Position numbers and translations under genes: made by a program. This document shows positions 59,828 through 60,398 of a stretch of 64,000 nucleotides of DNA, piece after piece. The notes beneath the pieces were generated by a model. That model did not search any database and was not told where the DNA came from. It saw only the letters and a list, made by a program, of their open reading frames with translations. This stretch comes from Deltaproteobacteria bacterium (GTDB lineage: Bacteria > Myxococcota > JACPTQ01): assembly GCA_016192705.1 (NCBI GenBank), contig JACPTQ010000044.1, positions 62,001-126,000 of the forward strand, read 5' to 3'. Every line of letters starts with the position of its first letter. The stretch's first letter is position 1.

Positions 59828-60133
59828 TCAGGCGCGCAGAGCGGTTATCGCAGCGTCGACGGTATCAAAGGGACCGCGGACGCGGCCAGCGGCATTGTCG
59901 GCGTCCGCTTCCCGCTCTTGGGCCTGCCATTCCGGCGTCCAGAAAAACCGCTGCGCGCGCGGAATTCGCCCGGCCGGAATTAGGTAGACGCCGTCTCCAA
60001 GGAACACGACTTCGATCTTGGCGCCCTTTCGAAGCCGCATTCGACGCGTCATTGCCTCCGGAAGCCGCACGCGAACTTCTCGTTTTAGGCCAAGCTTTAC
60101 TGTTGCCGTCGCGAGTCCCTTCGATACACTCAT
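59828..60133 (-). CDS. AbrB/SpoVT-domain protein at the right end of the island
   Basis: A 101-residue protein. TATVKLGLKREVRVRLPEAM and RLRKGAKIEVVFLGDGVYLI form an AbrB-type hairpin domain, and the C-terminus is acidic, as in MazE-like antitoxins (DADNAAGRVRGPFDTVDAAI). No toxin gene accompanies it. The ATG at 60133 is taken because the domain starts there. The upstream sequence includes a piece resembling the integrase C-terminus and, beyond it, the stranded tRNA promoter reading in this direction. Confidence 0.72.
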   Translation of the reverse strand: MSVSKGLATATVKLGLKREVRVRLPEAMTRRMRLRKGAKIEVVFLGDGVYLIPAGRIPRAQRFFWTPEWQAQEREADADNAAGRVRGPFDTVDAAITALRA

Positions 60134-60160
60134 GACACCATCGTACCGCAAGCCAATCGG

Positions 60161-60187
60161 TGTAACCATACTGTAACCAAATGCACC
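60161..60187. promoter_or_regulatory. Paired TGGTTAC motifs, candidate integrase arm site (right)
   Basis: Two TGGTTAC copies (minus strand) 11 bp apart, matching 31787-31813 at 24 of 27 bases with the same orientation. They lie about 110 bp inside the right attachment site and just upstream of the AbrB-like gene. Confidence 0.5.
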
Positions 60188-60294
60188 GAAATCGGGATCA
60201 TGTAACGTGATCACGCGCGATCGCCGATCTTCGCAAGTCCGCGTCCTGGCTACAAATGATCGCTTCTCGTGATCCCCCATGATCACGTCCGTGC

Positions 60295-60335
60295 GGATTT
60301 TCAGTCCTCTGCTCTACCGACTGAGCTACCCGGGC
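60295..60335 (-). repeat. Right attachment site: orphan 5' half of tRNA-Phe
   Basis: 41 bp identical to the 5' half of the tRNA-Phe gene at 31691-31731, in the same orientation, ending after the anticodon loop. It is not a functional tRNA. With the left copy it delimits the island (28,604 bp from repeat start to repeat start). Confidence 0.9.
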
Positions 60336-60368
60336 GAACCCGATAGACGAGACGAAAACGCAGCAAAA

Positions 60369-60398
60369 GATATCGCTCGCTCGCGGACACGGTGTCAA
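60369..60398 (-). promoter_or_regulatory. Stranded native tRNA-Phe promoter
   Basis: On the minus strand a perfect TTGACA (60393-60398) and a GATATC/TATCTT -10-like box (GATATC at 60369-60374) are spaced 18 bp and lie about 34 bp before the tRNA half at 60335. This looks like the original tRNA promoter, cut from its gene by island insertion. It should now transcribe the tRNA half and run into the AbrB-like gene. Confidence 0.6.

Follow-up and report, generated by a model that had tools for sequence, protein, structure and literature searches.

Near the right end of an integrated element, an AbrB-like gene lies behind a displaced tRNA half and a promoter that appears to have belonged to that tRNA, which raises the question of whether integration itself decides when the gene is transcribed. 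We followed this question through the window, i.e. the whole stretch of 64,000 nucleotides that was analysed. A preliminary description had proposed that the stranded promoter drives the AbrB-like gene only in the integrated state. The explanation we favour, and regard as probable when taken as a whole, is that 60295-60335 marks the right-hand junction at which an integrative element is attached, that this element restores the 5' half of a tRNA gene, not the 3' half, and that the AbrB-like gene has a source of transcription upstream in both states. The features on which this reading depends are:

31691..60335, no strand assigned: integrated element including both core copies, approximately 28.6 kb, delimited by 41-nt identical end repeats with a tyrosine integrase inside
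31658..31732, minus strand: complete tRNA-Phe (GAA), detected by ARAGORN and Rfam
31691..31731, minus strand: att core of the left end, which covers tRNA nucleotides 1-41 and extends through the anticodon loop
31745..33013, minus strand: tyrosine integrase, 422 aa (PF00589, E 9.7e-18; phrog_1, E 5.1e-52)
33024..33560, minus strand: 178-aa gene directly upstream of the integrase gene, from the ORF list
59828..60133, minus strand: gene for a MazE/AbrB-like antitoxin, 101 aa (ORF with a weak PF04014 match)
60295..60335, minus strand: right att core, the displaced tRNA-Phe 5' half
60370..60398, minus strand: candidate stranded host tRNA-Phe promoter (TTGACA, spacer 17, CGATAT), scored with a two-box model

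On the minus strand, all 41 nt of 60335-60295 agree with nucleotides 1-41 of tRNA-Phe (31731-31691). This core is the sole long direct repeat in 31000-61000 and can be extended to 50 nt at 94% identity; the other eight repeat families of that region are imperfect and 18-33 nt long. The integrase gene and the tRNA gene point in the same direction with 13 bp between the integrase end and the tRNA core, and the 178-aa gene has no match in Pfam, PHROGs or PADLOC. The island lies between a full tRNA gene and a 5' fragment that points the same way, and it contains a tyrosine integrase, as islands of the 5'-fragment class do. Its crossover falls in the anticodon stem-loop, with the core ending at tRNA nucleotide 41, and the related halves in genomes G061 and G128 and on contig 25 of the same assembly stop within the anticodon loop or shortly after it. 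The complete tRNA-Phe is composed of an element-derived 5' part and a host-derived 3' part. By this anatomy, the tyrosine integrase would recombine in the anticodon stem-loop and restore the 5' half of the tRNA gene, which would leave the host's original 5' half and tRNA-Phe promoter stranded outside the element and facing inward. As the displaced fragment is the 5' half, the original promoter should have stayed with it.

The same layout recurs among close relatives of the integrase. We compared 15 close loci (13 in other genomes besides the window's own and its sibling on contig 13, second matches within genomes being left out), seven of which have a same-strand tRNA gene directly behind the integrase gene, versus none of 35 distant relatives (fragment L022 dropped). 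Among the distant relatives, nine have a tRNA gene upstream on the same strand and 11 have one downstream on the opposite strand. The seven are the window's own locus, the contig 13 sibling, G061, G128, G139, G042 and G167, and the tRNAs behind their integrases are Phe, Arg, Lys (twice), Leu (twice) and Ser. At four of the other eight close loci, the integrase and a complete RNase P RNA gene face each other; two (L011 and L012) share only the 3'-end letters of that gene, as judged by eye, and L013 and L015 have neither. The subfamily seems to switch its target, restoring the 5' half of a tRNA gene in some members and the 3' end of rnpB in others. In L007, L008, L009 and L010, close relatives of the integrase abut the RNase P RNA gene at its 3' end in convergent orientation. 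The displaced half was located in four elements, namely the window's own, the one on contig 25, G061 and G128, while a search for right-end halves in G139, G042 and G167 found none, so that four of the seven elements could be compared. The half on contig 25 is probably the partner of the contig 13 integrase. The sibling element lies in tRNA-Arg(CCG) of the same genome (L055 3558-4891, L076 7957-7995); its integrase is 58% identical, and the assembly seems to divide the element between contigs 13 and 25.

The half-tRNA is separated from the AbrB-like gene by 161 nt (60134-60294) that hold no conserved gene and resemble an attachment arm, with counterparts at both element ends:

60207..60286, minus strand: right-arm segment of att, 63/80 identical to the right arm of the sibling element in the same genome
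60161..60178, minus strand: GGTTAC(N5)GGTTAC, the arm-type direct repeat of the right end, at a distance of 116 nt from the core
31787..31804, minus strand: GGTTAC(N5)GGTTAC, the arm-type direct repeat of the left end, located within the 3'-terminal part of the integrase gene

All four right ends carry, 114-120 nt away from the core, a tandem GTTAC-type repeat with a period of 11 bp, and a GTTAC-type tandem repeat is likewise present at the left ends of the four elements. The pattern GTHAC-N6-GTHAC, which was defined after the repeats had been seen, occurs twice each in the 64-kb window, a 60-kb stretch of G061 and a 48-kb stretch of G128, always at both element ends. The alignment between the arms of the window and contig 25 scores 75, compared to 33 for the best of 1000 shuffles. 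This conservation points to 60134-60294 as an attachment-site arm with putative integrase-binding repeats. Tandem repeats of period 11 but with different letters were also seen by eye near the integrase end in L007, L008, L009, L012, L014 and L017, as if the arm sites diverged together with the integrase. In draft genomes, the conserved arm layout helps to recognise where such elements end. GATC inverted repeats in this segment were considered as an operator for the AbrB-like protein itself and rejected, since the same segment precedes a different gene in the sibling element.

No two of the four right ends have the same gene next to the stranded promoter. On contig 25, this gene encodes an AAA_14/DUF4143 ATPase (with a palindrome containing TATAAT just before it, by eye), in G061 a 302-aa protein without Pfam match, and in G128 the next gene is convergent. 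Given these differing neighbours, the gene behind the stranded promoter seems to be whichever cargo is last. The earlier suggestion of a dedicated switch arrangement fits poorly with this pattern, as the AbrB-like gene is absent from the three other right ends of the subfamily and one neighbour faces the other way.

The candidate promoter consists of TTGACA at 60398-60393 and a -10-like box, either CGATAT after a 17-nt spacer (ending at 60370) or GATATC after 18 nt (ending at 60369). We scored it with a -35/-10 model trained on the 100 nt upstream of 37 other tRNA genes of the same genome, i.e. 40 upstream regions minus those of Phe, Arg-CCG and Glu-TTC. Its 8.36 bits were equalled by just seven of 400 random 100-mers from the window and, in leave-one-out scoring, reached by eight of the 37 regions used for training. 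A plain consensus scan of 59800-60560 reported no promoter, and in 150 random stretches of 427 nt, the length of the whole region, the 90% quantile was 8.61 bits. As one in ten random stretches of that length reaches 8.6 bits, the case for the promoter rests on its position before the tRNA half. The anatomy given in the preliminary description, a promoter at 60369-60398 pointing through the 41-nt tRNA half into the AbrB-type gene, was confirmed. A transcription stop at the tRNA half had been named there as an observation that would speak against read-through; no intrinsic terminator was recognised between the promoter and the AbrB-like gene, nor any terminator-like site in 59800-60560. The leader formed by half-tRNA and arm folds no more stably than its shuffles (z -0.19). 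Read-through from the stranded host promoter into the AbrB-like gene is plausible for the integrated state, judging from these sequence features.

Whether such read-through would amount to a switch depends on the other end of the element. The assembly has 41 tRNA places with a single Phe, although this draft is 96.65% complete and a second tRNA-Phe could be missing, and a DNA search of the assembly for a second copy found none. Provided that the cells obtain their tRNA-Phe from this gene, the sole one found in the assembly, it must be transcribed from the element side during integration. The restored gene lies behind the integrase gene, so the integrase gene or a promoter inside it would now have to supply transcription. 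The 100 nt before the restored tRNA-Phe hold no recognisable vegetative promoter, the best match of 2.07 bits being reached by 44% of random stretches. The best match farther upstream is:

33551..33578, minus strand: TTGACT-16-TAGTCT, the strongest vegetative promoter candidate before the integrase gene, with 10.4 bits, which does not reach significance over the length that was searched

Excision would join the integrase gene, the tRNA half, the arm and the AbrB-like gene in that order. While integrated, the AbrB-like gene could be reached by read-through from the stranded tRNA promoter of the host; after excision, the integrase gene would stand ahead of it, with attP in between. The junction geometry agrees with the earlier statement that the gene stands behind different upstream sequences in the two states, with the excised circle deduced from that geometry. 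Because the integrase side would have to transcribe the sole tRNA-Phe found and would adjoin the AbrB-like gene in the circle, this gene should be transcribed in both states, and it probably has a promoter in front when the element is excised as well. Integration would swap the promoter upstream of the AbrB-like gene but would not switch the gene on, and an on/off switch is unlikely. We infer the circle itself as well as transcription in both states, including read-through from the integrase operon into the tRNA. From the proposed integration-dependent mechanism, plausible read-through with no terminator found is retained, but expression exclusive to one state is not, since a source should lie upstream in both. 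Expression of the gene "only when integrated" is not supported, as in the circle the integrase gene and the element's tRNA 5' half would sit upstream of it.

Three other explanations for the expression or the role of the AbrB-like gene have to be weighed against this reading. Transcription from the stranded host promoter upon integration and silence in the circle would be in line with the rarity of the promoter score among random 100-mers, the terminator-free path to the gene and the unremarkable folding of the leader. We nevertheless consider it improbable, for the integrase-side sequence needed for the sole tRNA-Phe would lie upstream of the gene in the circle, and the gene does not occupy the same place in the three other right ends. 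The AbrB-like gene might instead have its own promoter in the arm region and be autoregulated like ordinary antitoxin genes, in which case the tRNA-side promoters would matter little. An independent promoter in 60134-60294 is the second observation that, by the preliminary description, would speak against its proposal; the best match there (TTGTAG-17-GAAGAT, 60255-60227) scores 5.46 bits, a value reached by 9% of 400 random 100-mers, and GTGATC inverted repeats were seen by eye in the same stretch. This is a possibility worth keeping, albeit a doubtful one, as the consensus scan yielded no promoter and the GATC-rich stretch is shared (63/80) with the sibling element, where it precedes the unrelated AAA_14/DUF4143 ATPase gene and, hence, belongs to the attachment site rather than to the AbrB-like gene.

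A role for the AbrB-like protein as directionality factor or integrase regulator, sited beside attP to act there, could be read from the gene abutting the arm and from two of six plasmid relatives that adjoin a site-specific integrase gene. However, the gene is absent from the other three right ends, the one of these two plasmid integrases that was compared is barely similar (24%, E 0.042), and two relatives precede recognised toxin genes, which makes such a role very improbable.

The ORF of the AbrB-like gene runs on the minus strand from an ATG at 60133 to a stop codon included at 59828. Its match to PF04014 (MazE/AbrB; E 0.0016, 18.8 bits) is below the curated cut-off of 24.7, and a single structure model of the protein has low confidence (mean pLDDT 56). 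Relatives are few, with two other genomes of 193 in one search and the same two of 195 in another, and none in viral contigs and phage records at the thresholds used. The relative in G013 is 56% identical in the first of these searches and 51% identical in alignment A1, and its gene overlaps a ParE-like toxin gene. One of six plasmid relatives precedes an annotated cytotoxin gene; for three, the gene downstream is small and unidentified, and the other two lack any such gene nearby. Taken together, the seven neighbourhoods (G013 plus the six on plasmids; G183 left out) comprise two with a recognised toxin, three with a small unidentified gene downstream and two with nothing close. The AbrB-like protein and its relatives with toxins have a conserved C-terminal motif in common. 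No toxin-like frame was found behind the AbrB-like gene in 59480-59830 on the minus strand, and the G013 toxin gave zero matches as a query against the window's contig. Most likely, the element carries the AbrB-like gene as cargo, and the gene product is an orphan type II antitoxin. A stand-alone regulator is less likely but conceivable, two of the seven relatives having no small gene close behind.

Further cargo resembles a defence island in 35687-48731, with large helicase-like proteins (35687-42725), a type I-like DNA methyltransferase (45035-46615), a WYL regulator (47751-48731) and PDC-S19 and PDC-S37 candidate-defence matches. The row of genes in 53445-59478 includes an HTH protein (54125-54451), a 967-aa protein without Pfam match and a family A DNA polymerase (57442-59478), and is possibly a replication module. 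Phage structural families were not detected among the 15 element ORFs searched (nine in Pfam, nine in PHROGs, three in both).

On a wider scale, the integrase subfamily might have evolved a reciprocal promoter exchange, with the host tRNA placed under the integrase operon, the host promoter driving the terminal cargo of the element, and both returned on excision. We regard this as unlikely on present grounds, but if true it would make the host depend for its survival on ongoing transcription of the integrase. Should transcription follow the anatomy, a single recombination event makes a host tRNA gene and genes of the element trade promoters, and the locus offers a clean test of whether integrases restoring 5' halves must keep the integrase operon on.

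Known systems offer several points of comparison. MazE/AbrB-type antitoxins paired with RelE/ParE-type toxins resemble the AbrB-like protein by the weak family match and the shared C-terminal motif, whereas the window's copy has no adjacent toxin gene. In the ICEclc circle, Pcirc plays a role towards the integrase gene. This outward constitutive promoter, according to the portion of the source used here (PMC9286271), is similar in that its downstream gene changes with excision, but it belongs to the element, while the promoter described here is the host's and stays behind. For pTN3-like archaeal integrases, a review reports tRNA read-through from the integrase operon and describes it as rarely encountered in bacteria; those integrases disrupt their own gene on integration, whereas the window's integrase gene stays whole (PMC8371274). 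The SIT arrangement shares the same orientation and an integrase preceding the tRNA, and the displaced half, unlike here, is not followed in the sections consulted; SIT and OD layouts together account for less than 8% of 1273 integrase-tRNA pairs (PMC2951348). Closest are the islands with a 5' tDNA fragment in the Islander database, which make up 159 of 3919 islands and likewise combine a full tRNA gene with a same-orientation 5' fragment, an internal tyrosine integrase and an anticodon-centred site; the excerpt of that paper reveals no structural difference and does not discuss the gene behind the stranded promoter (PMC4383910). With these frequencies, as given in the portions of both sources, the class is rare but known, and the element is a new case of it, an island with a 5' tRNA fragment.
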